Below are positions 12,940 through 28,821 of a DNA stretch of 52,098 bases, piece after piece. The notes under the pieces were generated by a model that was not told where the DNA came from, did no database searches, and saw only the letters and a list, made by a program, of their open reading frames with translations. The stretch is from Lysobacterales bacterium (GTDB lineage: Bacteria > Pseudomonadota > Gammaproteobacteria > Xanthomonadales > SZUA-36). Made by a program: the position numbers and the translations under genes. How positions within the stretch are numbered: position 1 is the first letter of the stretch; the number at the start of each line of letters is the position of its first letter. Location of the stretch: contig WTJD01000289.1 in the NCBI GenBank assembly GCA_011524975.1, positions 1 through 52,098 of the forward strand. Reading direction: 5' to 3'.

Positions 12940-13800
12940 TCAATAAATGAGTTCTACCCAGCGGTCCTCTGCGATCAGTCCGGCCTTTTTCTGCTCCCAG
13001 GCGTCGGTCGACCCCGTCAAAGCGCCAAAAAGCGCATCCAGGGAGTCCCGGATGCGCTTCTGGCCCGCTACATACACATAGGTGCTTTCCTGACCCAGCA
13101 GCTCTGCGATTTCCTCCGCGCGGTCCTCGATGGCGTAGTCCCAGGCAATGGGGTCTGCCCATTCCGGCCTTGGGCTCAGGGCCTTAAAGGCCTCGAAGGT
13201 GTCTTCATCGTAATAATTCGTGAAGTCGTCACGCTGCTTGTTCATGTACAGCAACTCCAGGCCCGACTGGGCGCCCATGAGCAGCCATATCTTCCCTCTC
13301 CACTCCGGCACGTTGCGATGTATATGTTTGACGAAAGCCCTGAAAGGGGCGATGCCGGTACCCATTCCTATCAGAACCAGGTTGGCATGTTTGTCTTCCG
13401 GCACGGTCCAGGGAATACCGAACGGACCGGTGATGGTGACCTCATCGCCCGGCTTCCGGTCGCACAGGAAGTTGGAATTGACGCCGATGTACTCTTCGCC
13501 GCTGTATTCGTCGATATAGCTGCAGCGTCGCACCACGATGGTAATTTCGGGTCTGTCATCGGGCTGGGTTTCAGGCGTGTCCGCGACGGTATACAGGCGA
13601 TGATGCAGGGGCTTGCCGAAGGCCGGCTCACCCTCCACCAGCACGCCGATGCTTTGGCCGACCTCGAAGCTGAAGCCGGGCTTGTCGACTTCCATGACCA
13701 GTTCACGGACTTCGACCTCCGCGCCCTCCTCGGTGATGGGTTCGGTCTTCAGTACCGTTGCCGTGTATCGGGGTTCCTTGGGATAGTCTTCAAGGCGCAT
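12940..13800 (-). CDS. fpr: Ferredoxin-NADP(+) reductase, plant-type fold
   Basis: This 286-residue protein has an FAD domain with HHRLYTVAD (the RxYS/T FAD-binding motif) and an NADP domain with GPFGIPW, LIGMGTGIAPFRAFV and YVYVAGQKRIRDSL. The chain ends in VELIY; a C-terminal aromatic stacked on FAD is standard in plant-type FNRs. It would move electrons between ferredoxin and NADP. It is the last gene of the rnf-por cluster, 11 bases after the 64-residue membrane protein, with AGGAGAG before its ATG. The context suggests it draws NADPH from the ferredoxin pool filled by PFOR and OGOR. Confidence 0.88.
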   Translation of the reverse strand: MRLEDYPKEPRYTATVLKTEPITEEGAEVEVRELVMEVDKPGFSFEVGQSIGVLVEGEPAFGKPLHHRLYTVADTPETQPDDRPEITIVVRRCSYIDEYSGEEYIGVNSNFLCDRKPGDEVTITGPFGIPWTVPEDKHANLVLIGMGTGIAPFRAFVKHIHRNVPEWRGKIWLLMGAQSGLELLYMNKQRDDFTNYYDEDTFEAFKALSPRPEWADPIAWDYAIEDRAEEIAELLGQESTYVYVAGQKRIRDSLDALFGALTGSTDAWEQKKAGLIAEDRWVELIY

Positions 13801-13811
13801 GACACGCTCTC

Positions 13812-14006
13812 CTATTCAAATTCGTTGGTCTCGTTCAATTCCTGCGCCGCCGCCTTGCCATGCTGATGACAGGTGCCGTCGCATTCATGGGCACGAAAGC
13901 CGTTGTTCATTCGGAAACGGAAGATGGCCTGGCTGGACAGCATTCGCAGCGAGATCATCAGCGCAATCAGGGCCATGGCGATGAATATGTGGATCAACCA
14001 GTGCAT
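13812..14006 (-). CDS. 64-residue Cys/His membrane protein coupled to rnfA
   Basis: The ATG (14006-14004) shares its first base with the rnfA stop (TGATG), so translation is coupled. Residues 1-21 form one transmembrane helix (MHWLIHIFIAMALIALMIS). A basic stretch follows (RFRMNNGFRAH), then a compact metal-ligand cluster at residues 40-49 (HECDGTCHQH) and an acidic tail. I do not recognise the family. NqrM, a small single-helix protein with Cys residues that supplies iron to the NqrD/NqrE site, is a functional analogue to consider, since RnfA and RnfE are their homologues. That role is inference; the sequence pattern differs from NqrM. Confidence 0.75.
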   Translation of the reverse strand: MHWLIHIFIAMALIALMISLRMLSSQAIFRFRMNNGFRAHECDGTCHQHGKAAAQELNETNEFE

Positions 14007-14584
14007 CAGCCCAGCCCCGCGAAGCCCATGAAAGCCATGGACAGCACACCGGCCACCACCAGCGCGGCGGCTGTGCCCCGCACCAGTTGCGGCACATTGG
14101 CGAGATCGAGCTTTTCCCTGACCCCCGCCATCAGCACCAGTGCCAGGGCGAAGCCAGCCCCCGCGCCCAGGGCGTACACAAAGGCCTGGCTGAAGCTGTA
14201 ACCCTTGTTGGTCTGGAACAGCGCCAGGCCGAAAATCGCGCAGTTGGTGGTGATGAGCGGCAGGAAGATGCCCAGCGCCTGGTAGGTCGGCGGGCTGAGT
14301 TTCTTCAGCAGCATCTCGACCAGCTGCACGGTGGAGGAAATCACCAGGATGTAAGAAATAATCCTCAAATACGGCGCGCCGATGATGTCCAGGATGATGT
14401 TGATGACAAAAGCGCAGACGGAAGCAACCAGCATCACGAAGCTGGCCGCGGCGCCCATTTTCCAGGCCGTTCCGATCTTGGAGGACACCCCGAAAAACGG
14501 GCAGATGCCGAGGAAGTAGGCCAGCACGAAGTTGTTGATCAACGACGAGTTGAGGAAGATGGACCAGTAGGAAACGTCTTTCAT
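14006..14584 (-). CDS. rnfA: RnfA, ion-translocating Rnf complex membrane subunit
   Basis: The protein has 192 residues and six helices. Hallmarks are NSSLINNFVLAYFLGICPFFGVS with the cysteine that shares an iron with RnfE, and LPLITTNCAIFGLAL in the inverted half. It is homologous to NqrE. The ATG at 14584 overlaps the rnfE stop (ATGA). An upstream Met at 14656 lies inside rnfE and is not used. It is part of the Rnf complex that couples ferredoxin oxidation and NAD reduction to ion pumping. Confidence 0.95.
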   Translation of the reverse strand: MKDVSYWSIFLNSSLINNFVLAYFLGICPFFGVSSKIGTAWKMGAAASFVMLVASVCAFVINIILDIIGAPYLRIISYILVISSTVQLVEMLLKKLSPPTYQALGIFLPLITTNCAIFGLALFQTNKGYSFSQAFVYALGAGAGFALALVLMAGVREKLDLANVPQLVRGTAAALVVAGVLSMAFMGFAGLG

Positions 14585-15222
14585 GACTCTGCCTCCGCGG
14601 CACGCCTGGCGGCATCGTCTTCTTTCTGGCGCAGCCAGTTCACGATCAGCAACCATCCCGCCATGGCCAGGAAGCCGCCACTGGGCAGCACCATGATGGT
14701 CCAGGTCTGGAAGCCGTCGGGGAACATGGAGACGCCGAACAATGTGCCGGAACCCAGTACTTCACGAACGATGCCGATAAACAGCAGGGCGAAGGTAAAA
14801 CCCACACCCATACCGAGCCCGTCCAGCATGGCCCGTCCCGGCTTGTTCTTGGAGGCAAACGCCTCTGAACGCCCGAGAATCAGGCAATTCACTACGATCA
14901 GGGCGATAAAGGCCCCCAGTGCCCGGTGCAGCTCAATACTGAGCGCCATGATGATGTAATCGACACAGGTCACGAAGGTCGCGATGATGCAGATATAGCT
15001 GACGATCCGCGCTTCCTTGGGGATGAATTTCCGCAACAGCGAGACGGAGAGTCCGGCCATGACAAGAACGAAGGTCGTCGCCGCACCCATGGCCAGGGCA
15101 TTAATGGCTGTGTTCGATACGGCCAGCGCGGGGCACATGCCCAGCACCTGGATGAATACCGGGTTGTCGCGCCACAGGCCCTTGACGAATTCATCCGTAG
15201 GGCTGACAGGTTTCAACGCCAC
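14581..15222 (-). CDS. rnfE: RnfE, Rnf complex membrane subunit
   Basis: This 213-residue protein has six predicted helices and the RnfE/NqrD hallmarks: NPVFIQVLGMCPALAVSNTAINALAMG and IALIVVNCLILGRSEAFA, each with the conserved cysteine for the shared Fe site. Translation starts at GTG 15222, which overlaps the rnfG stop by one base. It pairs with RnfA as a pseudo-symmetric unit. Confidence 0.95.
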   Translation of the reverse strand: MALKPVSPTDEFVKGLWRDNPVFIQVLGMCPALAVSNTAINALAMGAATTFVLVMAGLSVSLLRKFIPKEARIVSYICIIATFVTCVDYIIMALSIELHRALGAFIALIVVNCLILGRSEAFASKNKPGRAMLDGLGMGVGFTFALLFIGIVREVLGSGTLFGVSMFPDGFQTWTIMVLPSGGFLAMAGWLLIVNWLRQKEDDAARRAAEAES

Positions 15223-15929
15223 TATTCTTCCTCCGTTGGTTCCAGGGGCGCAGGCGGCTGCGGCGCCGGTATGGCGCGCGCCTCGCGCTCCAAAACCGGT
15301 ACCCAGACCTGCGCGCTGATATTCAGTATGTGTCCGATGGCCACCGAGGTAATCGTGGCGCCGGTAATGCCGTCCAGCTGCCAGGGTTCGGTCTTCTCAC
15401 CCTGCTTGACGGTAACAATCTCGTTGGCGAGCCCTGAACCATCGGCGGCGGGGCGCGCATCCAGGGCTTCGAAGTTGGCCAGGAAATGCGGCTCTTTCTC
15501 TACCTTGTCGCCCAGCCCCGGTGTTTCCTTGGTCTCCAGCACCTTCATGCCGGTAATGGCCTGGTTCTCGAAGGTGTAGGCATAGAGCACCCGCACGATA
15601 TCCTGGTAGCCCATGGCTTCTGAAGTCATGACGGCCCCGACCAGGTTGCCCTCAGCGTCGTAACCCAGGAAAGCGGGCAGATCCGCGTTTTCCTCGACCA
15701 CCACCAGTTGGCCGTCATCGTCCAGCGCCACGGCCTGGGTGAGCACTGCCGCAGGCAGAACCTCTGAAACGGCGCTTGCCAGGAATCGTTCCTGGTTGAT
15801 CTTGATCTGTGGCGCGGTGGCCATGTAGACACCCACGATCAAGATGGCGCAGAACGCGCCGATACCGACAATGGCCCGGTACATCTGCCAGGCGGTCGTT
15901 TTTTTCTGTTCCACTGGAGCCTGAGTCAT
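15222..15929 (-). CDS. rnfG: RnfG, FMN-carrying Rnf subunit
   Basis: The protein has 235 residues from ATG 15929, with a single N-terminal helix (about 17-38). A periplasmic FMN-binding domain contains ETPGLGDKVE and the flavinylation motif DGITGATITS, with T192 as the likely phosphoester-linked residue. The C-terminus is proline-rich (PAPQPPAPLEPTEEE). ApbE at 28923-30017 is the expected FMN transferase. A longer frame to 16268 is only a shadow of rnfD. Confidence 0.94.
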   Translation of the reverse strand: MTQAPVEQKKTTAWQMYRAIVGIGAFCAILIVGVYMATAPQIKINQERFLASAVSEVLPAAVLTQAVALDDDGQLVVVEENADLPAFLGYDAEGNLVGAVMTSEAMGYQDIVRVLYAYTFENQAITGMKVLETKETPGLGDKVEKEPHFLANFEALDARPAADGSGLANEIVTVKQGEKTEPWQLDGITGATITSVAIGHILNISAQVWVPVLEREARAIPAPQPPAPLEPTEEE

Positions 15930-16945
15930 CCCGACTTCCTCCCGGTGCCGAATACCCGTGGCTGGATCAGGTTGTCGATGTGAGGCGACACCGCGTTGGC
16001 CAGCAGGATGGCGTACATCACACCTTCTGGCATGCCGCCCCAGAAACGGATCACCACCACCAGTACGCCGATCAGCAGGCCGTACAACCAGCAACCGATG
16101 TGGGTAATGGGGGAGGCCACCATGTCGGTCGCCATGAAAACCGCGCCAAGCATCAGCCCGCCGGAGAACAGCATGAACAGGGGCCCCGGATAGGTCTGGG
16201 GATCGATCTGCTGAAAGATCCAGGTCATGACCGCGACCGTCAAGAAGATGGACGCGGGAATCCGCCAATTCATCATGTTGCGCGCCACCAGGTAGATGCC
16301 GCCGAGCAGGATCAGCACACCGCAGGTTTCACCCACCGAGCCCGTGGTCAGGCCGTACATGAGTTGGGCGTCAGCAGCGAACACCGCCTCGAATTTCATT
16401 TGCGCCAGCGGCGTGGCCTGCGTAGCAGCGTCATAAACCGGTTCCGCAAACGGCATGGCCAGCACGGAAGAGGGAATATGCGTGAAGCGATCGTCGATAA
16501 ACGGCATCTGCCAGTGCGTCATGGCCTGCGGAAAGGCTGCTTGCAGAAACGCACGGGCGACCAGCGCCGGGTTGAATGCGTTCATTCCCAGGCCGCCGAA
16601 CAGGAACTTGCCGACGCCAACGCCAAAAGCGCCCCCGACAAACACCATCCAGAGCGGCAGGTCGGGTGGCAGCGTCAGGCCGTAGAGCAGGCCGGTGATG
16701 GCCACGGACCAGTCACCCACGGTGGTCGGCTGACCAGCGAATTTACACAAGACATGCTCGGTCAGTACGCAGCTCAGCACGGCTGCGGCCAGCACCAGCG
16801 CAGCGCCGGTGCCGAACGCGTAAACCGCGAAGATGGTCACCGGCAGCAGGGCCAGCACCACGTTGAACATGATGTTGTCAACGCTGGCCCCGGAACTGAT
16901 GTGCGGTGACGAACCGATTTCGAGCAGTTTCTTCAGCGGACTCAC
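15926..16945 (-). CDS. rnfD: RnfD, Rnf complex membrane subunit
   Basis: The protein has 339 residues and about ten helices. The GTG start at 16945 overlaps the rnfC stop (GTGA). Hallmarks are GKFLFGGLGMNAFNPALVARAF and GAVFMATDMVASPIT. The FMN-attachment region reads YDAATQATPLAQMK: the usual S/T-G-A-T has Gln in place of Gly, with T178 as the likely FMN site. RnfD is homologous to NqrB and carries electrons across the membrane. Confidence 0.94.
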   Translation of the reverse strand: MSPLKKLLEIGSSPHISSGASVDNIMFNVVLALLPVTIFAVYAFGTGAALVLAAAVLSCVLTEHVLCKFAGQPTTVGDWSVAITGLLYGLTLPPDLPLWMVFVGGAFGVGVGKFLFGGLGMNAFNPALVARAFLQAAFPQAMTHWQMPFIDDRFTHIPSSVLAMPFAEPVYDAATQATPLAQMKFEAVFAADAQLMYGLTTGSVGETCGVLILLGGIYLVARNMMNWRIPASIFLTVAVMTWIFQQIDPQTYPGPLFMLFSGGLMLGAVFMATDMVASPITHIGCWLYGLLIGVLVVVIRFWGGMPEGVMYAILLANAVSPHIDNLIQPRVFGTGRKSG

Positions 16946-18288
16946 GCGGCGGCCCTCATCTTGCGCACCATCTTCTTGGACATGCGGAAGTACTGCACCA
17001 GCGGAATGTGAGAGGGGCAGACATAGGAGCAAGATCCACACTCGAAGCAATCCATCAGGTGGAAATCGTCCGCCATCTGCTCGTATTGCTCGAACTTGGC
17101 CAGGATGCCGAGTTGGGATGGGTTCAGATACAACGGGCAGGCCTCCACGCAACGCGCGCAACCAATGCAGGGATAGACCTTGCGATGCCCGGTAGACCCG
17201 CCGGTCTCGGCCGCGGTGAAGGCCGTAATGCCGGATGTGCCCTTGGTGATGGGAATGTCCAGGTTGGACACCGACGGACCCATCATCGGGCCGCCCATGA
17301 ACACGCGGCTGATGTCTTCAACGGCGCCGCATTGCTCGAGCGCGAAACGCACGGTCGTGCCAATCGGAATGCGGTAGTTGCCTTTTTTGCTCACGCCGGG
17401 GCCGGTGATCGTGATGACCCGCTCCTGGATGCCGCGCCCCCGCGGCAGCAGTCGGCCGATTTCGGCGGTGGTGGCCACGTTGCAACAGACCGCGCCCACA
17501 TCAGCCGGCAGCCCGCCAGAGGGGATTTCGCGTCCCAGCAGGGCCTTGATCACCATCTTCTCCGCACCCTGCGGATATTTCACCGGAGAAACCCGTACCT
17601 CGACCGGCAGATCTTCAGGCACTGCTGCAGCCAGCTTTTCAGCGGCATCGGGTTTATTGGCCTCGATGGCAATGACCGCGCGAGGCGTTTGGGTGACTTT
17701 CAGCAGATAACGGATACCCATGAAGATATCTTCCGTCTGCTCCAGCATCACGCGGTGATCGGTGGTCAGATAGGGCTCGCATTCGACACCGTTAATGAAC
17801 AGGGTATCCAGCGTCTTGCCTTCGGGCGGCCGCAGCTTGACGTGGGTCGGAAACGCGGCGCCGCCCAGGCCAACGATGCCGGCGCGCTGGATGGCCGTGA
17901 CGATCTCGTCAGGCGTGGCCGATTCCACGTCGCAGGGTTCGCCATCAGCGATTTCCTGCGTGGAAGCGGGCAGGGGCTCAAGGTAGACGGCTTCCACCAT
18001 CTGGCCGTTGATGTGCGGCGCCAGGCCGATGCGGCGTATCGTGCCCGAAGCCGGCGCGTGCATGGCCACGGACATGAAGCCGTCTGCTTCGGCGATGGTC
18101 TGGCCGCGGACCACTTCCTGCCCTTCCCGGACCACCGGCTTTGCCGGCTTACCGAGATGCTGGCTCAGCGGCACGATCAGGACCGGCGCAAACGGGAACT
18201 GCCGGATGGGCAGCCCGGACGTGTCGTCCTTGTTCTCCGGTGGATGGATGCCGTGCGGGAACGAGTCCCTTTTTGCGAAATCGAGCAT
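16942..18288 (-). CDS. rnfC: RnfC, NADH/FMN/Fe-S Rnf subunit
   Basis: The 448 residues contain the barrel-sandwich start (GQTIAEADGFMSVAMHAPASG), the NADH/FMN fold with GLGGAAFPTHVKL and NGVECEPYLTTDHR, an SLBB segment, and two 4Fe-4S motifs near the C-terminus (CIGCARCVEACP and CFECGSCSYVCP). It lacks the long Ala/Lys-rich C-terminal extension seen in many enterobacterial and Vibrio RnfC proteins, so it resembles the compact form of anaerobes. It is separated from the PFOR gene by about 200 bases holding a palindromic repeat. Confidence 0.96.
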   Translation of the reverse strand: MLDFAKRDSFPHGIHPPENKDDTSGLPIRQFPFAPVLIVPLSQHLGKPAKPVVREGQEVVRGQTIAEADGFMSVAMHAPASGTIRRIGLAPHINGQMVEAVYLEPLPASTQEIADGEPCDVESATPDEIVTAIQRAGIVGLGGAAFPTHVKLRPPEGKTLDTLFINGVECEPYLTTDHRVMLEQTEDIFMGIRYLLKVTQTPRAVIAIEANKPDAAEKLAAAVPEDLPVEVRVSPVKYPQGAEKMVIKALLGREIPSGGLPADVGAVCCNVATTAEIGRLLPRGRGIQERVITITGPGVSKKGNYRIPIGTTVRFALEQCGAVEDISRVFMGGPMMGPSVSNLDIPITKGTSGITAFTAAETGGSTGHRKVYPCIGCARCVEACPLYLNPSQLGILAKFEQYEQMADDFHLMDCFECGSCSYVCPSHIPLVQYFRMSKKMVRKMRAAA

Positions 18289-18374: not shown

Positions 18375-18444
18375 CTTCAAGACACGCCGTGAACCCATCC
18401 CTGGGGGCTCGGAGCGAGCATCCCTGCTCGCTACGGTCTTGAAG
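18375..18444. repeat. Palindromic intergenic element between PFOR and rnfC
   Basis: Outer arms CTTCAAGAC (18375-18383) and GTCTTGAAG (18436-18444) are perfect inverted repeats. They enclose two hairpins that share the loop TCCC: CCCA-TCCC-TGGG (18394-18405) and an 8-bp stem AGCGAGCA-TCCC-TGCTCGCT (18413-18432). The whole can fold as a three-way junction in either strand. It looks like a REP-type dispersed element and may stabilise or attenuate the operon mRNA. Confidence 0.7.
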
Positions 18445-18484: not shown

Positions 18485-21400
18485 CTAGTTATACTTCTGC
18501 CCCCGCTTGATCCACTTGGCGATGTCCTTGTCGCTGTGATCACGCGGCAATCCCGGATGAATGACTTCAGCCGTGCATTTCTCAGCGGCCTTCACGAGGT
18601 CGCGGTAGGGCCCGGCATCGGGGTTTTTGATAATGGCCTTGTCATCGCCGTTGTACTCGAAGATGTCGGGGTTGATCATGACGCACTCGTCACAGGTGGT
18701 GCAGTCGTCGGTATCGATCCAGGGCGCCATGTACTCCCCCGCAGTCTCGGCAGCCGGCTCAGCCACCGCTTCAGGCGCGGGCGCTGAGGCCACCGCGGCC
18801 AGCTGGGGCTTTGGTGGCTCCGGTGCAGGAGCGGCAGCCGCTGTTTCCAGCATCGCGCCCATGTCCAGCGCCTGGTTGCCACTGACCAGTCCCATCAGGC
18901 CGGAGGTGATCTTGTTGACCACTTCCTGCCGGATGCGTGACTCGATCTGGGTTTCGTCCACCACCGGGGCTTCTTCTTCCATGCCAAGTTCTTTCAGCAT
19001 GCGCCAGAAGGCGAGCCGGTCTTCGGCCGAGCGAATCATCGGTTCGGCCACCAGCAGGCGGCTGAGCTGACGCTTGGCGTCCAGCGCCCAGACGTAGGGC
19101 ACCTTGCCGTCGCGGTCGTCCTCATCCAGTTCGATGTACTCATTGACCGGGACCATGTCCTCATGCCACGCATCCCGCGGGATCTTGCGGAAATGCTTGC
19201 GGAACCGGGCCTCGGTGACGGCGAAGTCGACGAAGGTCGTGGGCAGTTCCAGTTCCTTCTCGCGGTCCTGTTCCACGTACTGAATCTTGGAAACCGGCCA
19301 GTCCAGGTTCATCGACGGATTGCCTTCCAGATCCAGGCACTCGATGATGGAGTCACCGGCATCCGGGTCGTAGCGGAACAGCGGATAGGTGCGGGATTCC
19401 ACCGCCAGCTTGGCCTGGTGGTGGGACATATCGTCACCGATGCCGTGTTCCGGCTGGCAGGAGCTGTACAGGTTGAACAGCGCCGGCCGGCGGGACATCA
19501 GGCCCTGCACGAAGCCTTCGATCATGTGGTTTGCATGAGCGATCGTGGACTGCATGAAATACGTGGTGCGGTGCGCCATGGCGATCAGGCCGATTTCTTT
19601 GCGCATCTCCTCTTTGCCCTTGATGGCCTTGCCGAACTGGGCCATGTCTGACACCTGTCCGAAAAAGCCGGATGTGCAGGCCTGGCCGCCGGTGTTGGAG
19701 TACACCTGCGTATCCACGACCAGCACCTTGATGGGTTTGCCCGACATCAGCGCCCGGGAGAGATTCTGGAAGCCGATGTCGTACATGGCCCCGTCGCCGC
19801 CCACCGCTACCACGGGCGGACAGAGGTTGAACTCATCGTCGCTGAAGTCCTCCCAGTTGAAGTAGCGGTAATCGTCCGCCCAGCCCTCAGGATCGAATTT
19901 GTCCCTGGCCAGTTGCTCGGCGATGCGGAGGGTCTTGAAGCCTTTTGCCATCTTCGCCATGTGCCCTTCGAACACCCCCATGGCCATGGAGGCCGGGTCC
20001 TGGAACAGGTGGTTGGCCCAGGGGAAGGGGTAGGGGTTGTATGGATAGGTGCTGCCCCAGACGGACGTACAGCCGGTGGCGTTGAGCATGCCCATGCTGG
20101 ACCGGCCCTTGCCGCTGACGCCCGCGGTATAGCGCCACTTGAGGTCGTTCAACTCGGCGACAATGTCGCTGACATATTTCAGCCATTCGCGATCCACCGG
20201 CTGGGTCTCATGCGTCTGCTCGACCTTCTCGGCAATTTTCGCCAGGGTCAGGTCGCCGCCGTCGTCGGCCAGCACGGCCTGCATCTCCTCGGCATCAGAG
20301 ATATCGATCTCACCGACCAGCTTCATCTGCACATGCTGTTTCAGCTTCCCGATCAGCTCATCGATCCTGGCCACCTGTTTCTTCACGCGGGGCTGCATCA
20401 GCGACTCGATGGTCGCCACGAACAGATGCACCACCGTCTTCTCGGAGCAGCCGAGGCAGGAACCGTCGCCGCTGGCGAAGGGCAGGTAGGCGTCCTTGTT
20501 CAGCAGGATGGTCTGCAGGGCGCCGATGCCCTGTTCCAGGTCGTCGACGCGATTGTATTTCTCAGAGGTGCTGGGCAGATCGAGCCAGAATTCCCAGTTC
20601 TTGCGCAGGTCGGCGATGGAGTCGCGCGTCTGGGTGACGGCGCGCAGCGCGTCGTCGTTGCAGACTTCCACGCATTCCATGCAGCCCTTGCAGGTCCAGG
20701 GGTCCACGGTGATGCTGAGCAGCCCACCATTGCCTGGCTGTTTCTTCTCCGGATTGGTGAAGTAGGGCCGGGTCAGCGAGAACTTGAAGGTGCCCAGCTC
20801 GGTCATGAAGTCCCTGAACTCTTCGGCCAGGGCGTCGCGCGAGGCGGCGTCATAGGCCTCGACGGTCTGAGCAACGGCCTGGTTAAGCAGGTCGTGCACG
20901 GAGGCGGATTCGCCGGCCTCATTCATCAGCTTGCGCAGCTTGCCTTCCATCTGGCGCGTGGCGCGCGGCAGGTGCTCGGTGGGCTTGCCGTGTTTCTTCA
21001 ATCGTTTAACCACCGTGTCCAGCACCTGACTGACTTCATTGACCAGGCCCGGAATGGCCGTGTCGGGGCACACCGTGTAGCAGTCACCGCAGGCGGTGCA
21101 GTTTTCCGGAATGAACTCAGGATGCTCGAAGCGGATCGAGGTCATGTCGCGGAAATGCGAGGACACCGCCGGCATCAGGCTCATGCTCATGAAGGGGTCG
21201 GCCGGTACCGATTCGCCCAGCCCACTGGCATACATGCTGCCGGTCTGCGCCCAGAAGCGATGGATGTTGGATGAAGGCGACTGCGATTCGGGCTCGCGCT
21301 GAACCATGATCGGCACCGGCAGGGTTCCGTCGGACTTCCTGCCGTCCTCACTCAGGTGCCGGTCGGTGACTTCCGTGATTTCCTCGAAGCCACGACGGAC

Positions 21401-23458
21401 CACGCGCATATTGTCTTCGACCACGCGCGCACCCTTGGAGCCGAACTTGTGTTGCAGCTGGTCGCGAATGGCATCGAGCAGTTTTGCTTCGCTGAGGCCA
21501 TGTTTCTCCATCAACTGGGGCGAAGCAGCGAAGAACGCACCCTGGAAGGCGATACCTTGCATACGCAACTGCAATTCAGGATCCGTCGCTTCATCGCGGG
21601 CGATCTTGAAGGCATCCAGGAAAAACACGCGGATATCGTTGTCCACGATCTGTTGTCGATAGCGCCGTGGGATCGAGGTCCAAAATTCTTCCGCTGAAGC
21701 GGCGTCGCTCTGCATGATCAATACCCCACCCTGGTTCAGGCCGTTCACCGCGTTGGTGTGGCCGAACACATTTGGATCGGGCGATAGCACCACGTCCACG
21801 TAATGGTACTCGGCGTTGATTCGAATGGTTTCGGGCGCGGCCGAGAGGTAATAGCTGGTGGGTTGACCCTTCTTCTCAGAGCCGTATTTCGGGTTGGCCT
21901 TGACGTGATAACCCAGCAGGTCATACAGCGTCATGGCGAGGTTCTTGCCCGTGGTGATCGCGCCCCATCCACCCACGGAATGCATGCGTACCGTGATGCT
22001 GTCTTTTGGCATCAGGTTGGGGTTTTCGCTGCCCTTCACCGCAAGTTCGGCGACTTTGGGATAGGCGTCAAGCACCTCCTGCTGATAGATCTCCTGTTTC
22101 GGCGACATCATGCCGTTCTTGCGCACAAAGTCGATAGACAGGTAGAACATGCGCTTCTGGTCGCCGTCCGGCAGCATGTTTTCGATGGCCCCGACCAGCC
22201 CTTCGGGCTGCAGGTCGCGGCTGCCCAGGCCGAAGGAGCCCGAGTACAGTTCCGGCAGGTCGTCCAGCGAGCGATAGCTGTCCAGTTCGGGATAGACCTT
22301 GCCGTTCTTGCTGCGTCCATTCTCCAGGCATTTGTTCAGGGTGGCGCGGACCTCGCGCATCATCGGCAGGTCGGCCGCCAGCGGCTGATCGGTGCGTTCC
22401 AGCACCGCAACGCCTTTCTTGCCTTTGAGGATTCGGCCCAGCAAATCACCAGGGAAGGGCCGGAACATGATCATGTTGACCACGCCGACCTTGATCTTGC
22501 GCGTTTCGCGCAGGTAGTCGGCCACGGCCTCCGCCGTTGGGATCAGGCTGCCCTGGCCAAGGATCAGGTAGTCGGCATCCTCTGTACGGTAGCCCATGAC
22601 ACGCTCATAACGGCGCCCTGTGAGCTGGTAGAAGTCTTCGAAAGCCTGGTCGGTCAGTTCCTGGACATGATCGAAGAAGTAGGGACGCTGCGCCGCCACG
22701 CTTTGCATGTACGCGTCCTGGTTCTGCACGGGCCCGGCCAGGACCGGGTCGTCCACCGTCCACAGCTCCGGGATCCGGCGGCGCTTCTCGCCATAAATAA
22801 TGCGCTGGGCGGGCGTGGGGGTATCGATGATGTCTTCGGGTTTACCCAGGTACTCCGCGATGAGTTCGCGTTCGGGGATGTTCAGCGATTCGATCAGGTG
22901 GGTGGTCAGAAACCCGTCCTGGCCCACGGCGCCGGGCGTCAATGCCAGTTCGGCGATCCGGTGGGACATGATGTTCAGGTCAGCGACCTGCTGGGCATTC
23001 TTGGCCATGACCTGGAAGAAACCCGTATCGTCAATGCAGTGGTAATCATCGTGGCCGGCGTGCACGTTCAGTGATGCCTTGGTCATGGCCCGGCAGCCGA
23101 CGTTGAGCACGTAGGTCAGCCGTTTGCCCACGGCCGCATACAGATTCTCATGCATGTAGGCGATGCCCTGCCCCGATGAGAAATTGGTGGCGCGCAGGCC
23201 CGTCATGGACAGGCCGGCGGTGACCGACGCGGCCGCGTGTTCGCCTTCAGGTTCGATAAAGATCAGGGGGCGTCCTGAAATATTGATGTGGCCGGCGGCT
23301 GCCGCCTCGGCCCAGTATTCCCCCATCTGGGTGGACGGCGTGATGGGATAGGCGCCGGCGCCATCGCTGGACTCGCGCTCGCACATGATGGCGGCGGAGT
23401 TGCCGTCCATGGCGGCGCGAATGCCGGGATACTTGAAGGTCTGCTCTTGTCTTTTCAT
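18485..23458 (-). CDS. nifJ: Pyruvate:ferredoxin oxidoreductase fused to a ferredoxin domain
   Basis: This 1657-residue, single-chain 2-oxoacid:ferredoxin oxidoreductase would decarboxylate pyruvate to acetyl-CoA. In order: alpha domain (AYPITPSTQMGEYW near 36-49), CoA/domain II, gamma domain (RMHSVGGWGAITTGKNLA near 491-508), two 4Fe-4S motifs (C787/790/793/797 and C923/926/929/933), proximal cluster C1001/C1004, TPP motif GGDGAMYDIGF (1220-1230) and YSNTGGQ. Standard NifJ proteins have about 1170-1200 residues. The excess is an insertion between the Fe-S motifs, a helical insertion at about 1020-1110, a post-TPP domain, an Ala/Pro linker (1540-1572) and a C-terminal single-cluster ferredoxin (C1586/1589/1592 and C1628). 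ATG 23458 was chosen because the upstream Met overlaps rnfB. Confidence 0.93.
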   Translation of the reverse strand: MKRQEQTFKYPGIRAAMDGNSAAIMCERESSDGAGAYPITPSTQMGEYWAEAAAAGHINISGRPLIFIEPEGEHAAASVTAGLSMTGLRATNFSSGQGIAYMHENLYAAVGKRLTYVLNVGCRAMTKASLNVHAGHDDYHCIDDTGFFQVMAKNAQQVADLNIMSHRIAELALTPGAVGQDGFLTTHLIESLNIPERELIAEYLGKPEDIIDTPTPAQRIIYGEKRRRIPELWTVDDPVLAGPVQNQDAYMQSVAAQRPYFFDHVQELTDQAFEDFYQLTGRRYERVMGYRTEDADYLILGQGSLIPTAEAVADYLRETRKIKVGVVNMIMFRPFPGDLLGRILKGKKGVAVLERTDQPLAADLPMMREVRATLNKCLENGRSKNGKVYPELDSYRSLDDLPELYSGSFGLGSRDLQPEGLVGAIENMLPDGDQKRMFYLSIDFVRKNGMMSPKQEIYQQEVLDAYPKVAELAVKGSENPNLMPKDSITVRMHSVGGWGAITTGKNLAMTLYDLLGYHVKANPKYGSEKKGQPTSYYLSAAPETIRINAEYHYVDVVLSPDPNVFGHTNAVNGLNQGGVLIMQSDAASAEEFWTSIPRRYRQQIVDNDIRVFFLDAFKIARDEATDPELQLRMQGIAFQGAFFAASPQLMEKHGLSEAKLLDAIRDQLQHKFGSKGARVVEDNMRVVRRGFEEITEVTDRHLSEDGRKSDGTLPVPIMVQREPESQSPSSNIHRFWAQTGSMYASGLGESVPADPFMSMSLMPAVSSHFRDMTSIRFEHPEFIPENCTACGDCYTVCPDTAIPGLVNEVSQVLDTVVKRLKKHGKPTEHLPRATRQMEGKLRKLMNEAGESASVHDLLNQAVAQTVEAYDAASRDALAEEFRDFMTELGTFKFSLTRPYFTNPEKKQPGNGGLLSITVDPWTCKGCMECVEVCNDDALRAVTQTRDSIADLRKNWEFWLDLPSTSEKYNRVDDLEQGIGALQTILLNKDAYLPFASGDGSCLGCSEKTVVHLFVATIESLMQPRVKKQVARIDELIGKLKQHVQMKLVGEIDISDAEEMQAVLADDGGDLTLAKIAEKVEQTHETQPVDREWLKYVSDIVAELNDLKWRYTAGVSGKGRSSMGMLNATGCTSVWGSTYPYNPYPFPWANHLFQDPASMAMGVFEGHMAKMAKGFKTLRIAEQLARDKFDPEGWADDYRYFNWEDFSDDEFNLCPPVVAVGGDGAMYDIGFQNLSRALMSGKPIKVLVVDTQVYSNTGGQACTSGFFGQVSDMAQFGKAIKGKEEMRKEIGLIAMAHRTTYFMQSTIAHANHMIEGFVQGLMSRRPALFNLYSSCQPEHGIGDDMSHHQAKLAVESRTYPLFRYDPDAGDSIIECLDLEGNPSMNLDWPVSKIQYVEQDREKELELPTTFVDFAVTEARFRKHFRKIPRDAWHEDMVPVNEYIELDEDDRDGKVPYVWALDAKRQLSRLLVAEPMIRSAEDRLAFWRMLKELGMEEEAPVVDETQIESRIRQEVVNKITSGLMGLVSGNQALDMGAMLETAAAAPAPEPPKPQLAAVASAPAPEAVAEPAAETAGEYMAPWIDTDDCTTCDECVMINPDIFEYNGDDKAIIKNPDAGPYRDLVKAAEKCTAEVIHPGLPRDHSDKDIAKWIKRGQKYN

Positions 23459-23474
23459 GGGACTGATCTTTCTG

Positions 23475-24332
23475 TTAAGTGTTGACGGCCCGCCTTTCAC
23501 CCTGGCGCACGACGCGTCGCGCGCCGCGGCCGGTTTGCGGGCCCTGTTTTTCGTCGAACCAGACAATGGCTCCGGTGGGACAGCGGTCTATGGCCGTCCG
23601 AACGTTGTGATTCCGCCCGTAATCCACGACCGGAAGGTTTTCGACCATGGCGATAACGCCCGGTGCGTCGGCCGCGCAGCGGCCGCAGGCATCGCAGCCG
23701 ACCTCGCAGTCATCCAGCACCGCCTGACCTTTGGCCAGGTTCTTGCAGTTCACCCAGAGGCGATTGCTCACCGGGTGCAGGGAGAACAGGTCCTTGGGGC
23801 AGGCCTCGACGCAGTCGCCGCAGGCCGTGCAGTGGTCTTCATTCACCACGGGCAGGCCGTGCCGGTCCATGGTGATGGCGTCGAAATCGCAAACGGTTTC
23901 GCAGTCTCCCAGACCCAGGCAGCCCCAGAAACAGGCCTTGCCTCCGCCGGCGATCAGCTCCGCGCCCCTGCAGCTGGGCACCCCGGCGTAGGAGGCACGA
24001 TTGCGGGCCGTATTGGCGCCACCCGCACAGGCCAGGCGGGCGACAACCTTTTCCTCGGCGCCGGCATCGACGCCCATGAAGCCCGCGACCTCTTCCCGCT
24101 CGTCCTCGTTCATCACCGTGCACTTTCCGGGCAGCGCCTCCCCGCCGACGATGGCGATGGCCAGTCCGGCGCAGCCGGGAAATCCGCAGGCCCCGCAGTT
24201 GGTGCCTGGCAACATGTCCTGGACGGCCTCGATGCGCGGGTCCTCCTCCACATGCAGGAAACGGTGCGCCACGACCAGTAAGGTTGCGAATACGAAGCAA
24301 AGTGCTGCCAATGTAAGAACGGCTATGTACAT
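23475..24332 (-). CDS. rnfB: RnfB, Fe-S entry subunit of the Rnf complex
   Basis: The 285 residues start with one transmembrane helix, followed by the Fes domain (GTNCGACGFPGCAGLA, with a later C71). The middle has CFWGCLGLGDCETVC (C134/138/144/148) and a full motif CTACGDCVEACP (168-179). The next motif, CDACGRCAADAP, lacks its fourth cysteine, and the final repeat keeps only CPTGA (C251). C213/216/219 plus C251 could hold a single cluster, so one cluster of the second ferredoxin pair seems lost. RnfB takes electrons from ferredoxin. It lies 16 bases before the PFOR gene. Confidence 0.94.
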   Translation of the reverse strand: MYIAVLTLAALCFVFATLLVVAHRFLHVEEDPRIEAVQDMLPGTNCGACGFPGCAGLAIAIVGGEALPGKCTVMNEDEREEVAGFMGVDAGAEEKVVARLACAGGANTARNRASYAGVPSCRGAELIAGGGKACFWGCLGLGDCETVCDFDAITMDRHGLPVVNEDHCTACGDCVEACPKDLFSLHPVSNRLWVNCKNLAKGQAVLDDCEVGCDACGRCAADAPGVIAMVENLPVVDYGRNHNVRTAIDRCPTGAIVWFDEKQGPQTGRGARRVVRQGERRAVNT

Positions 24333-24473: not shown

Positions 24474-25859
24474 TTACGGCCGATTGATCAGCGCGTACAG
24501 CAACTGTTCGAGCTGCTGCCGCATATCGTCCTGCACGGCCGGCGGAATACGGTGCTCAGCGCCGGCCTCATCGGCCGCCTCATCCGCGGTTCCGAGAATC
24601 CTGGGGTCGAGCAGGTCCGTTGCCGCGCGCGCGGCTGCCTGAGCTTCCGCGAGGCTCATCTTGATGTTCTTGGCGCCGCTGCCGCAGCCGGCGATGAAGA
24701 CACCGGGCCGGGAACTGCCGATGGCCGTTCCATTGCCGCCGCTGACGGCAAGATAGCCCGACTGCGCCAGTTCGACGCCCGCGGATTCGGCGAGCTCACC
24801 CAGGCCCTGCGGCGGTTCCACGTCATTGCACAGAACCACCATGTCATAGCATCCGCGCTGGAAGCGATGGGATGTCAGATCCTCGTAGGAGACTTCCAGC
24901 CCTCCGCCAGCGGCGGAATCGACCTTGAACATCGCGCCCCAAAACACGTCGACGCCATGGTCTGCCGCCATGGCGCGGCCGGCTTCCACACTATCATCGC
25001 CAGGCGGTGACAGGATAAGCACGTTGACCTTTTCCACGTCCTGTTCAAGCAACTGATGGACCTGGCTGGCAACGATGTAGAGCGCGAACGGTGAGGGATT
25101 GTCCAGCACCAGCAGCACGCTCTCCGGGTATTCCTCGTTGGAGGGCTTGGAGGCGTAGCCACCGGTGGGTCCGGGGTCCTCCAGCAGCCGCTGCAGCTCA
25201 GCGGAGGTCACGATGTCCGGATGCTTGCCATAGCCCAACTCGGCGAAGCGGATCGGCTCCTCCGTCCGGAACCCGGGTGCCAGTATGACGGCGCCCACCT
25301 GCCTGCGGTGAACGGTATCCAGCGCCATGTCAAAGAAGATGGCCTGGTCGTCGCAGACCTCGATGCAGCGATTGCAGGGCAGGTAGTTGGGCGGCGTATT
25401 GAGGCAATCCTCGATGTTGATGACATAGGCCTCGGGCAACGTGTCTGACATCGGTGTGTAAATGGCCTTGCGATGCGTGAGGCCGGCATCGAATTCATTC
25501 GGGCTCACCTGGGGGCACACCGTGTGGCAGTTTTTGCAGCGCGTGCAGGCGTCGGTTACAAATCGCGCCTGCTCGCGGATGCTGACGGTGAAGTTGCCGG
25601 GTTTGCCCTCGATGCCCTGCAACTCGGACAGGGTCATGATCTCGATGTTTTCATTGTCCACCAGCGCGTTGAACAACGGCGTGCGCGTTCCTTCGGAGCG
25701 GTCACCAATGGCGGATGACTCCAGCATGGTAGCGGCGAGCCTGCCGCCTGCCACGGGTCCACGTTCGACCACGATAGCGCGCGCGCCCGCGTTCGCGCAT
25801 TCCAGCGCGGCATGCAACCCGGCAATGCCGCCACCGACGACGAGAATTGAATCAGTCAT
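24474..25859 (-). CDS. HdrA-like FAD and 4Fe-4S oxidoreductase
   Basis: This 461-residue protein has an N-terminal FAD Rossmann motif (ILVVGGGIAGLHAALE, residues 5-20, followed by the GG of VAGGRLA). It has one complete 4Fe-4S motif (C105/108/111/115) and a second cysteine set C152/C162/C165/C169. A late FAD-closing segment GSSRPGVFIAGCGSGAKNIKMS has the HdrA-type ending. It resembles the flavin subunit of heterodisulfide reductases, but no HdrB or HdrC is present. It overlaps korC by four bases, so it belongs to the OGOR operon and may pass or bifurcate electrons from it. The partner is unknown. Confidence 0.82.
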   Translation of the reverse strand: MTDSILVVGGGIAGLHAALECANAGARAIVVERGPVAGGRLAATMLESSAIGDRSEGTRTPLFNALVDNENIEIMTLSELQGIEGKPGNFTVSIREQARFVTDACTRCKNCHTVCPQVSPNEFDAGLTHRKAIYTPMSDTLPEAYVINIEDCLNTPPNYLPCNRCIEVCDDQAIFFDMALDTVHRRQVGAVILAPGFRTEEPIRFAELGYGKHPDIVTSAELQRLLEDPGPTGGYASKPSNEEYPESVLLVLDNPSPFALYIVASQVHQLLEQDVEKVNVLILSPPGDDSVEAGRAMAADHGVDVFWGAMFKVDSAAGGGLEVSYEDLTSHRFQRGCYDMVVLCNDVEPPQGLGELAESAGVELAQSGYLAVSGGNGTAIGSSRPGVFIAGCGSGAKNIKMSLAEAQAAARAATDLLDPRILGTADEAADEAGAEHRIPPAVQDDMRQQLEQLLYALINRP

Positions 25860-26449
25860 GATGCTTCACTGTTTCGGGCGAACTCGATACCGGCATCGAG
25901 CGCCTTGATGTTCACTTCGACGATCTTTTCCTTCATCTGCTTGCGGATCGCCTGGACCATGGCCTCGCGGCTGACGACACCGGTGGCCCCGACCAAGCAG
26001 CCGAGTATCACCACGTTGCGGGTGAGCCGGTTACCCACCTCATCCGCAATCTTCGTTGCCGGCACCATGATGGCGGAGGCCTCGTCTTCCTCTGAAACCT
26101 TGACCAGCGCGCTGTCCACGATCAGGGTGCCGCCTTCCTTCAGCATGGGGCGGAACTTGGTGTACGCCTCCGGGAACAGGGCGGCCAGCACATCGGCCTG
26201 GATGACAAAGGGATAATCCACGGCATCCTCGGAGATCACCACGTCGGATCGTGCCGCCCCGCCCCGTGCCTCGGGCCCGTAAGACTGGGTGACAACGGCC
26301 TCTTTGCCGTCATACAGGGACGCGGCGATACCCAGCAGCTTGCTCGACAGCACGATGCCCTGGCCGCCGACGCCGCCGATGCGGATTTCCCAGGATTTCC
26401 TGGCGCCGTTGTTGTCGCTTGCTGTCATGGCTTTGTCTACCTTGTTCAC
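25856..26449 (-). CDS. korC: 2-oxoacid:ferredoxin oxidoreductase gamma subunit (KorC)
   Basis: This 197-residue subunit carries the gamma-domain signature (WEIRIGGVGGQGIVLSSKLL near 20-39), then VTQSYGPEARGGAARSDVVIS. The GTG start at 26449 overlaps the korB stop (GTGA); an internal ATG at 26428 is an alternative. With KorA, KorB and KorD it forms a four-subunit enzyme, most likely acting on 2-oxoglutarate and making succinyl-CoA and reduced ferredoxin. Confidence 0.93.
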   Translation of the reverse strand: MNKVDKAMTASDNNGARKSWEIRIGGVGGQGIVLSSKLLGIAASLYDGKEAVVTQSYGPEARGGAARSDVVISEDAVDYPFVIQADVLAALFPEAYTKFRPMLKEGGTLIVDSALVKVSEEDEASAIMVPATKIADEVGNRLTRNVVILGCLVGATGVVSREAMVQAIRKQMKEKIVEVNIKALDAGIEFARNSEAS

Positions 26450-27276
26450 GCGACCAGCGGCGGCCGGTCGATATCGACGAAATTGCCGACGGTTATGCCC
26501 TTTTCTGGATCGATCAGGTCGATATCGATGTCTTGCAGGTTGGTCGCGCCGTGTCGAATCTTGCAGCGCTCGCGGTAAATCTCGACTTCGTGCAGGCCGT
26601 CACCAATCTTGTTGGCGCGACCAAACCCGGTGGGGCAGGGGGAGAGCACTTCGATAAAGCAGAAGCCTTCCTTGTTCATGCAACGCAGGATCGCGTCCTG
26701 GAATTCACGCACGTGCAGAATGGTCCAGCGAGCGACGAAAGTGGCACCCGTGGCCTGGGCCAGGTAGGGCAGATTGAAGGGCTGGTCCACCGCGCCTTTC
26801 GGCGCGGTCGTCCCCTTGGCGCCGATCGGTGTGGTCGGGCCGACCTGTCCGCCGGTCATGCCGTAGGTGAAGTTGTTGATGCAGATGACCGTCATGTTGA
26901 CGTTGCGTCGCGCGGCATGAATCAGGTGATTGCCGCCAATTGAGCTGAGGTCTCCGTCACCGCTAATGACCGTGACCTTGAGCTCGGGCCTGTGCACTGC
27001 GATGCCCAGCGCGAATGGCAGTGCCCGGCCATGGGTGGCGTGATAGGAGTCCACGTTGACATATCCGGCGGCCCTGCCGCTGCAGCCGATGCCGGAAACG
27101 CACACGTGCTGATCTTCTGGAAGGTCCGAATTGGCAATCGCGTGCGCGTAGCTGTGGACCACGGTGCCGATACCGCAGCCCGGGCAAAGTATGTGCGGCA
27201 GGCGGTCAGCGCGCAGCAGGTGGTCAATGGGGTGGCTGGTGGGCGCGTTTTTTACATTGATGTCGATGGCGCTCAT
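26446..27276 (-). CDS. korB: 2-oxoacid:ferredoxin oxidoreductase beta subunit (KorB)
   Basis: The 276-residue TPP subunit has the cluster-binding CPGCGIG (C31, C34), a further GIGCSGRAAGY and the TPP motif SGDGDLSSIGGNHLIHAARR with INNFTYGMTGGQ. The GIGCSGRA and FTYGMTGGQ wording is typical of 2-oxoglutarate oxidoreductases rather than pyruvate ones. It overlaps korA by four bases (ATGA). Confidence 0.94.
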   Translation of the reverse strand: MSAIDINVKNAPTSHPIDHLLRADRLPHILCPGCGIGTVVHSYAHAIANSDLPEDQHVCVSGIGCSGRAAGYVNVDSYHATHGRALPFALGIAVHRPELKVTVISGDGDLSSIGGNHLIHAARRNVNMTVICINNFTYGMTGGQVGPTTPIGAKGTTAPKGAVDQPFNLPYLAQATGATFVARWTILHVREFQDAILRCMNKEGFCFIEVLSPCPTGFGRANKIGDGLHEVEIYRERCKIRHGATNLQDIDIDLIDPEKGITVGNFVDIDRPPLVA

Positions 27277-28457
27277 GATCGGATCAGCTCCAGGATGGCG
27301 TTGGGCGTCGGCATTTGCCCACCGGCATGATTCAGTCTGAGGACGGGCAGGCTGGTCAGCCGCTCGACCTCCCGGCGCAACTGACCGAGGTTGATTTCAG
27401 GGACGATGAAGCGCTTGACGTCTCCCTGGGCAACCAGCTCACGAATGCGACCTTCGGGGAACGGCCAGACGGTGATCAGCCGGATCATGCCCACTTTCAG
27501 TCCTTCGGCCCGCGCCTGCCGCACGGCCGCGCTCGCCGAGCGCGCCGTGCAGCCAAATGACACCACGATGGTGTCGGCATCGTCGCAGTCGAACTCCTCG
27601 TGCATTTCGATGTCGGCCGCGTTCAGCCGAATCTTGTCGACCAGGCGGTTCACCAGGATGTCGTGCGTTTCGGGGAACATGGCCGGGTATCCGCGCTCGT
27701 CATGGGTCAGGCCGGTCATGTGGACTTTGTAGCCCTCCCCCGCGTGCGCCATGGGCGGGACCAGATCATCATCGGGGCGATAGCTCAGGAACTGCCCCTC
27801 TCCGGGACGGGTTTTTGGTTTCTTGCGCCCAATGAAGGGAATATCCTTCGGTTGGGGGATCACCACCCGTTCCATCATGTGGCCGACGATTTCGTCCATC
27901 ATGACAAACACGGGGACCCGGTATTTGTCCGCCGCGTTGAATGCCTTGACCGTGAGGTCGAAGCATTCCTGGGGTGAGGCAGGGCAGTACGCAATGATGC
28001 CGTAATCGCCATGCGAGCCCCATCGGGCCTGCAGAATATCCGATTGCCCCACCATGGTTGGAATGCCGGTCGAAGGCGAAGCCCGCTGGACGTTGGCCAC
28101 GACACATGGGGTCTCCAGCATCGCCGCCAGGCCGATGTTCTCCATCATCAGGCTGAAGCCCGGGCCGGAGGTGGCCGTCAGGCTGCGGGCGCCGGCGGCA
28201 GAGGCGCCGATGATGGCCGCCATGCTGGCCAGTTCGTCTTCCATCTGCACAAAGCGCCCACCTGAGGCGGGAAGCCGGCTGGCCAGGTGCTCCGCCACTT
28301 CTGTGCTGGGGGTGATCGGATAGCCCGCGAAAAAATCCAGGCCGGCCGCGAGCGCGCCCTCAGCGCAGGCATGGTCTCCGAGCATGAAGTGGGACCCGGT
28401 GAGCACGCGCGGCTCGAGTTCTTCGCGGGTCTGCATGGCGCAGGCGCTGTCCGGCAT
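27273..28457 (-). CDS. korA: 2-oxoacid:ferredoxin oxidoreductase alpha subunit (KorA)
   Basis: The 394 residues start the PYR domain with HACAEGALAAGLDFFAGYPITP, then FVQMEDELASMAAIIGASAAG and TATSGPGFSLMMENIGLA. The C-terminal part (GMIRLITVWPFPEGRIREL) is the transketolase-C-like domain. In this enzyme class the gamma domain is a separate protein, as found next door. AAAGGGAG lies eight bases before the ATG. It follows korD by four bases. Confidence 0.95.
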   Translation of the reverse strand: MPDSACAMQTREELEPRVLTGSHFMLGDHACAEGALAAGLDFFAGYPITPSTEVAEHLASRLPASGGRFVQMEDELASMAAIIGASAAGARSLTATSGPGFSLMMENIGLAAMLETPCVVANVQRASPSTGIPTMVGQSDILQARWGSHGDYGIIAYCPASPQECFDLTVKAFNAADKYRVPVFVMMDEIVGHMMERVVIPQPKDIPFIGRKKPKTRPGEGQFLSYRPDDDLVPPMAHAGEGYKVHMTGLTHDERGYPAMFPETHDILVNRLVDKIRLNAADIEMHEEFDCDDADTIVVSFGCTARSASAAVRQARAEGLKVGMIRLITVWPFPEGRIRELVAQGDVKRFIVPEINLGQLRREVERLTSLPVLRLNHAGGQMPTPNAILELIRS

Positions 28458-28461
28458 CGGC

Positions 28462-28821
28462 TTAGCTCCCTTTCTCTTTCTCTGAAACGTCCGTGGTGAA
28501 TATCGCCAGTTCCGGGCAGATCATGTTGCAGAACTGGCAGTGAACGCAGGATTGATCCTTACCCTCGGCCACCTTCGGGAATCGGTAACCCCGGGCGTTG
28601 ATCTCGTCGGTGTAGACCAGCACGTCGGTCGGGCAGTAGTTAATGCACAAACCGCATTCCTTGCATCGTTCCGCGATAACGTGCACCTGGCCCACGGGCA
28701 CCTGGGCCCGGTCGAGGTCCATCGGTTTTCTTAGCGCAGTCCCGGCCACATCGTTCACCCTGACCCCCGGTTTCCTCTTCCATTGCTGAATTCGCGCACC
28801 CGCCTTACTGGCGGTAACCAT
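28462..28821 (-). CDS. korD: 2-oxoacid:ferredoxin oxidoreductase delta (ferredoxin) subunit (KorD)
   Basis: This 119-residue protein carries two 4Fe-4S motifs, C53/56/59/63 (CKECGLCINYCP) and C92/95/98/102 (CVHCQFCNMICP). An N-terminal tail of about 45 residues is basic. It is the ferredoxin-like subunit that receives electrons from KorAB, and the first gene of the long minus-strand cluster. The Shine-Dalgarno before ATG 28821 is weak, so the true start may be further in. Confidence 0.9.
   Translation of the reverse strand: MVTASKAGARIQQWKRKPGVRVNDVAGTALRKPMDLDRAQVPVGQVHVIAERCKECGLCINYCPTDVLVYTDEINARGYRFPKVAEGKDQSCVHCQFCNMICPELAIFTTDVSEKEKGS

Follow-up and report, generated by a model that had tools for sequence, protein, structure and literature searches.

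Homodimeric pyruvate:ferredoxin oxidoreductases (PFORs) and NifJ proteins, exemplified by the enzymes of Desulfovibrio africanus and Moorella thermoacetica, share a common order of domains, three [4Fe-4S] cluster motifs, a thiamine pyrophosphate (TPP) motif, and a conserved Thr (within a YPITP motif) and Arg. A partner of the D. africanus enzyme is ferredoxin I, a free protein that carries a single [4Fe-4S] cluster. Rnf complexes of the Bacteroidetes type are encoded by six genes in the order rnfBCDGEA (PMC4014512). A search of that paper for the word pyruvate had no match, and the accessible part of a review (PMC12174285) mentions no PFOR in rnf operons.

The locus described here is found in a Lysobacterales bacterium, in a stretch of 52,098 nucleotides (contig WTJD01000289.1) that was analysed as a whole and is called the window. 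It contains the same six rnf genes in the same order. Unlike Bacteroidetes-type operons, however, this locus and its relatives have a PFOR gene between rnfB and rnfC or at the head of the operon, and a ferredoxin:NADP reductase (FNR) gene is added. The encoded PFOR differs from homodimeric PFOR and NifJ in having two helical insertions, a linker and a C-terminal ferredoxin, and in residing inside an rnf operon. This enzyme, with its ferredoxin as a tethered domain, is probably the dedicated electron source of the surrounding Rnf complex. Searches of open-access titles and abstracts, which are weak evidence of absence, returned no description of ferredoxin-tailed PFORs, of PFORs inside rnf operons, or of the pseudo-PFOR and adaptor proteins described below. 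The components are known, and what may be new is their fused architecture inside rnf operons, together with the pseudo-PFOR/adaptor variant.

The PFOR frame occupies positions 18485 to 23458 of the minus strand, with an ATG at 23458, a stop codon ending at 18485 and no internal stops. Its product of 1657 residues is about 450 residues longer than homodimeric PFOR or NifJ, which bears out the original prediction of a protein longer than NifJ. Pfam matches above gathering scores are POR_N (residues 34 to 261; 22676 to 23359, minus strand), PFOR_II (295 to 376), POR (496 to 692), two internal Fer4 motifs, TPP_enzyme_C (1215 to 1328; 19475 to 19816, minus strand) and, in the tail, Fer4_15/Fer4_13 (1580 to 1634). 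The order POR_N, PFOR_II, POR, two cluster motifs and TPP domain is that of homodimeric PFOR. Searches with phmmer match the protein to the PFORs of M. thermoacetica (E = 3e-83) and D. africanus (about 2e-70), and its tail part to D. gigas ferredoxin II. The NCBI NifJ model TIGR02176 scores only 400 bits, in four stretches, against a cut-off of 911, so the protein is a divergent PFOR rather than a NifJ as that model defines NifJ.

Functional residues were located with an alignment of 100 proteins, the window protein included, that comprises 80 homologues with the highest scores among at least 588, together with relatives of the window's genome. Because these are best-scoring homologues, counts from this set describe close members of the family. 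The ligands of the proximal, medial and distal clusters, the TPP GDG motif, and the substrate Thr and Arg are all present in the window protein. Its T40 (in YPITP) and R123, both within the POR_N domain, align with the pyruvate-binding Thr31 and Arg114 of D. africanus PFOR; in a Sulfolobus enzyme, the corresponding Thr and Arg are essential or important (PMC5020499). The TPP domain carries GGDG and VYSNTGG motifs. The first internal cluster motif consists of C787, C790, C793 and C797 (21068 to 21100, minus strand), the second of C923, C926, C929 and C933 (20660 to 20692, minus strand), and the ligands of the proximal cluster are C1001, C1004, C1130 and C1334. Among the best 80 of at least 588 homologues plus host relatives, the eight internal-cluster cysteines and the proximal CxxC are kept in 100 of 100 proteins, and the other two proximal ligands in 99 of 100, with one gap each. 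Judged by its sequence, the window protein is most likely a pyruvate-oxidising enzyme of the PFOR type.

Comparison with a NifJ from the same bacterial family indicates that two insertions noted in the original prediction, one between the internal cluster motifs and one after the CLGC motif, are both real. The first (about residues 802 to 915; 20714 to 21055, minus strand) lies between C797 and C923, which are 126 residues apart versus 46 in this NifJ. The second (about residues 1006 to 1120; 20099 to 20443, minus strand) lies between CLGC and the third proximal cysteine, a distance of 126 residues versus 25. Both are all-helical in an AlphaFold2 model of residues 776 to 1657 (pLDDT 84, pTM 0.84), and the second has one predicted helix of 45 residues.

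In the same model, about residues 1527 to 1575 (18734 to 18880, minus strand) are mostly disordered. This region is an Ala/Gly/Pro linker, and its counterparts in the family alignment are rich in Ala, Gly, Glu and Pro and span 26 to 73 residues, with a median of 35. The linker leads to a single-cluster ferredoxin (residues 1576 to 1657; 18488 to 18733, minus strand) that is modelled with confidence (block pLDDT 86 to 93 in the large model) and adopts a ferredoxin fold when modelled alone (mean pLDDT 96). A domain of this kind behind an Ala/Pro linker had been predicted, with ligands C1586, C1589, C1592 and C1628, and the Pfam search confirms it. The four cysteines are as claimed and form the C-x2-C-x2-C ... 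C pattern that accompanies the Fer4_13/Fer4_15 match. A lack of conservation of these residues had been named beforehand as a refuting result, but they are present in all 97 proteins that are uncut by a contig end in the set of the best 80 of at least 588 homologues plus host relatives. The only homologues without them (L050, L096 and L102) all run off a contig end.

A profile search with the tail finds D. africanus ferredoxin I (E = 3e-9), Foldseek places the same protein at rank 1 (E = 9e-5), and its structure 1fxr is also the best match in VIA-align (Z 9.7, with 62 residues superposed at rmsd 1.7). Among solved proteins, D. africanus ferredoxin I is the closest relative of the tail in both sequence and predicted fold. 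The tail differs from this free protein in being fused and in carrying an additional, conserved C-terminal helix beyond the ferredoxin I fold. Cysteine conservation, profile match and fold match led to rejection of a chance or mis-called tail. An origin as a copy of the C-terminal Fer4_13 region of RnfB was also discarded; the local alignment between the two extends over only 10 residues, which gives no support for a close shared ancestry.

Many multi-cluster enzymes have ferredoxin-like relay domains, and the tail could be an additional internal relay of this kind, with free ferredoxin still carrying electrons to Rnf. Such a role is distinctly improbable. Relay domains have to be held in place, whereas the disordered linker, which varies from 26 to 73 residues, argues for a mobile carrier. 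In engineered ferredoxin-hydrogenase fusions fed by PFOR, tethering through a flexible linker raised flux in a manner that depended on linker length (PMC2847965). Those fusions are synthetic and carry the ferredoxin on the hydrogenase side, whereas here it is on the PFOR side. They provide an engineered precedent for tethering as insulation.

The operon lies on the minus strand. It is preceded there by genes for a second 2-oxoacid:ferredoxin oxidoreductase (KOR; delta, alpha, beta and gamma subunits) and an HdrA-like FAD/FeS protein (together 24474 to 28821), and consists of rnfB (23475 to 24332), the PFOR gene, rnfC (16942 to 18288), rnfD (15926 to 17161), rnfG (15222 to 16268; FMN_bind), rnfE (14581 to 15222), rnfA (14006 to 14656) and a plant-type (PetH-like) FNR (12940 to 13800) that scores below curated cut-offs. 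The coordinates of rnfD, rnfG and rnfA are those of open frames with the true start inside. The prediction that rnfB adjoins the PFOR gene is correct: it ends 16 nt upstream, and its 285-residue product exceeds the cut-off of TIGR01944 and, near its C-terminus, also matches Fer4_13 (residues 212 to 257). The HdrA-like gene (24474 to 25859, minus strand), which ends the KOR set just upstream of rnfB, is in divergent orientation in L006 and L078. An ApbE flavin transferase gene on the plus strand (28923 to 30017) likely provides for flavinylation of RnfG and RnfD. The gap of 196 nt between PFOR and rnfC contains a perfect 20-nt inverted repeat, AGCGAGCAGGGATGCTCGCT, at positions 18413 to 18432. 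This hairpin is found once in the genome and so does not belong to a repeat family. A promoter scan gave no more matches than expected by chance, and a count of terminators was of marginal significance.

The placement of the gene is conserved. In the set formed by the best 80 of at least 588 homologues plus host relatives, rnfC is the next gene for 88 of the 89 homologues whose downstream flank reaches 400 nt or more, and rnfB is immediately upstream of PFOR in 55 of 88. In Bacteroidota, rnfB instead follows FNR and closes the operon. Overall, rnfB is present in 53 of the 55 loci of this best-scoring set that have enough flank, and FNR in 51 of the 55 with 6.5 kb downstream. The gene therefore lies within an rnf operon in most carriers, as looked for in an Rnf subunit. 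One tailed PFOR, at L028, lies outside any rnf operon.

Assigned by record title, the aligned proteins come from at least nine phyla within the best 80 of at least 588 homologues plus host relatives: Bacteroidota, Pseudomonadota, Acidobacteriota, Myxococcota, Planctomycetota, Hydrogenedentota, Calditrichota, Binatota and Verrucomicrobiota. Cultured carriers include Polaribacter, Algoriphagus, Marivirga, Persicobacter and Rubripirellula, and a plasmid search added two unannotated relatives, with a Gemmatimonadota plasmid among the carriers. Many of the records are metagenome-assembled genomes (MAGs), of which several have probably been binned wrongly; a homologue from a 'Rickettsiales' MAG, for example, groups with Marinoscillum in the tree. 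In this FastTree phylogeny the only outgroup, one NifJ, has a very long branch, and no conclusion about origin is drawn from it. Carriage is patchy, with matches, adaptors included, in 7 of 299 genomes sampled from Pseudomonadota and in 4 of 296 from Bacteroidota. Haem-copper oxidases are encoded in 22 of the 23 carrier genomes tested, and cytochrome bd in the remaining one. A tailed PFOR in an rnf operon is a widespread trait of this family, mostly of oxygen-breathing bacteria.

Searches with the C-terminal part of the protein also find adaptors, proteins of about 740 to 870 residues with the same ferredoxin tail. A profile of these proteins matches the beta half of PFOR plus the tail over 629 columns (E = 9e-94). 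The four tail cysteines are kept in 10 of 10 adaptors, and the TPP and proximal-cluster residues are gone. Adaptors are, by these comparisons, decayed PFOR beta halves joined to a tail. They follow KorA-KorB at the loci examined, and at five of them (L136, L162, L181, L183 and L184) the order is KorA-KorB-adaptor-rnfB-pseudo-PFOR, then rnfC where the contig continues. The pseudo-PFOR has about 1235 to 1430 residues and no tail. It keeps the eight internal-cluster cysteines in 5 of 5 cases but no longer has the GDG motif, the aligned Glu69 or any of the four proximal cysteines. It appears to be catalytically dead, with its thiamine site lost.

KorA proteins of the split operons score above the threshold of TIGR03710. 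Two-subunit oxidoreductases like StOFOR from Sulfolobus tokodaii are without domain V and use an external ferredoxin (PMC5020499), whereas the split operons also encode a two-cluster pseudo-PFOR and a ferredoxin-bearing adaptor. This can be read to mean that the two-cluster wire and the ferredoxin tail were selectively kept once KorAB took over catalysis. In a Calditrichales MAG, a split operon is followed directly by an ordinary rnfB-PFOR-rnfCDGEA-FNR operon.

Free-standing versions of the tail ferredoxin were absent from 24 searched genomes, where it occurs only on PFORs of about 1650 residues or on adaptors of about 740 to 830, and a group sample of 148 genomes yielded none except cut or frame-broken copies. 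One such candidate, a 189-residue frame in G772 (L180), was rejected as a standalone tail; it belongs to a frame-broken PFOR whose two parts overlap. The frame changes near residue 1452, which could be a sequencing error. A tail-bearing protein of 960 residues in G695 probably runs off the start of its contig.

Some members of the family occur away from Rnf. G533 encodes an adaptor and has no RnfC match in its genome. In an alphaproteobacterial genus (L124, L125 and L126), a PFOR of about 1685 residues with 35% identity and a diverged ferredoxin tail is not located beside rnf, although the L124 genome has RnfC elsewhere. These cases indicate that Rnf is not the only system with which the tail is associated. 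The L124 gene adjoins one for a 994-residue protein that resembles a fused Nfn, an NADPH-making enzyme that likewise uses ferredoxin. This neighbour, the FNR gene of the window operon, and its counterparts in 51 of the 55 loci with enough flank (among the best 80 of at least 588 homologues plus host relatives) would fit a tail that mainly serves the plant-type FNR, making NADPH for biosynthesis while Rnf only balances the pool. Such a division of labour is nevertheless unlikely. The gene that constantly adjoins PFOR is rnfC, while rnfB lies on one side or closes the operon, and in the split operons examined the pseudo-PFOR is flanked by RnfB and RnfC rather than by FNR.

The host genome encodes an aceE pyruvate dehydrogenase and isocitrate lyase, and the idea that PFOR replaces a missing pyruvate dehydrogenase or glyoxylate shunt was rejected for this host. 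A second, more ordinary RnfC is also encoded. Since the host has aceE and this second RnfC, the PFOR-Rnf system is an addition and not the only route. The same genes bear on the possibility that electrons flow in reverse. Rnf would then reduce the tail at the expense of NADH and the ion gradient, and the enzyme would form pyruvate from acetyl-CoA and CO2, serving as a pyruvate synthase when aerobes grow on acetate or fatty acids. In principle, PFORs are reversible, and the presence of aceE means that an oxidative role is already filled. Rnf drives ferredoxin reduction in Azotobacter, according to a review (PMC12174285). However, the presence of isocitrate lyase means that acetate assimilation needs no pyruvate synthesis, and several groups repeatedly encode a second oxidoreductase (KOR or KorAB) beside these operons, a pattern at least equally compatible with 2-oxoacid oxidation. 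Reverse operation is rather unlikely, and the oxidative direction is favoured.

The original prediction offered either direct hand-over of electrons to Rnf or protection of these electrons. Hand-over has strong indirect support from near-invariant operon placement across phyla, from conservation of the tail, and from a split operon that keeps both the tail and the two-cluster domain although catalysis appears to have passed to KorAB, while protection has gained no specific support. The embedding of the gene within the operon, the wide spread of the architecture and the split form go beyond that prediction. One version of the protection reading holds that the tail shields the enzyme or its electrons from oxygen and so substitutes for domain VII, the C-terminal arm of the D. 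africanus enzyme. Residues 1 to 719 of the AlphaFold2 model (776 to 1494 of the protein) align with residues 678 to 1169 of the D. africanus chain, and this alignment stops just before domain VII, whose limits are taken from PMC8945911. Terminal oxidases also occur in nearly all carriers tested, so this reading is not separable by these data. Nonetheless, the tail has a cluster motif and a disordered linker rather than a packed arm, and it is also present on adaptors, away from the PFOR catalytic unit. A protective arm is very improbable.

Use of the long PFOR as the dedicated electron source of Rnf suggests the following path, for which we infer co-transcription, complex formation, docking, the individual transfer steps and their direction. 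Pyruvate would be oxidised at TPP to acetyl-CoA and CO2, and the distal cluster would reduce the single cluster of the C-terminal ferredoxin. This domain would then swing on its disordered linker to RnfB, and possibly also reach the co-encoded plant-type FNR. Electrons would end in NADH, with ion pumping, or in NADPH, and none would be released on a free ferredoxin. In the sister operon the path would be split between KorAB (catalysis and its own cluster), pseudo-PFOR (two internal clusters) and adaptor (tail).

A bolder and more doubtful proposal is that the long PFOR or its dead descendant is an extra Rnf subunit. The complex might then be a membrane-bound 2-oxoacid:NAD+ oxidoreductase supercomplex with a swinging ferredoxin, and a second class would have a pseudo-PFOR wire fed by KorAB through the adaptor. 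If pyruvate oxidation is coupled to Rnf as proposed, with or without such a supercomplex, respiring bacteria would have an ion-pumping alternative to NADH-making pyruvate dehydrogenase that operates via a tethered, insulated ferredoxin. This would bear on how aerobes handle low-potential electrons and on the source of electrons for Rnf in aerobes, Bacteroidota among them. Because the split form is a natural dissection into catalysis, wire and shuttle, the role of each part is directly testable by gene removal.

Paralogues in Woeseiales, with about 48 to 50% identity, have KorA-KorB about 1 kb upstream of rnfB-PFOR in 10 of 10 loci examined. Between KorB and rnfB, these loci (L167 to L176) contain a conserved gene for an uncharacterised protein of about 338 residues. 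Its similarity to the adaptor/TPP-beta domain is remote (hhalign E = 4.5e-5, probability 69), and no ferredoxin tail is seen. In half of the loci (L172 to L176), which encode KorAB nearby, VYSNTGG has lost its Asn and reads, for example, ASSSGG or ANSAGG. This change could possibly reflect an altered substrate or decaying activity, and because it affects part of the Woeseiales paralogues, not all members of the family need be pyruvate oxidases.
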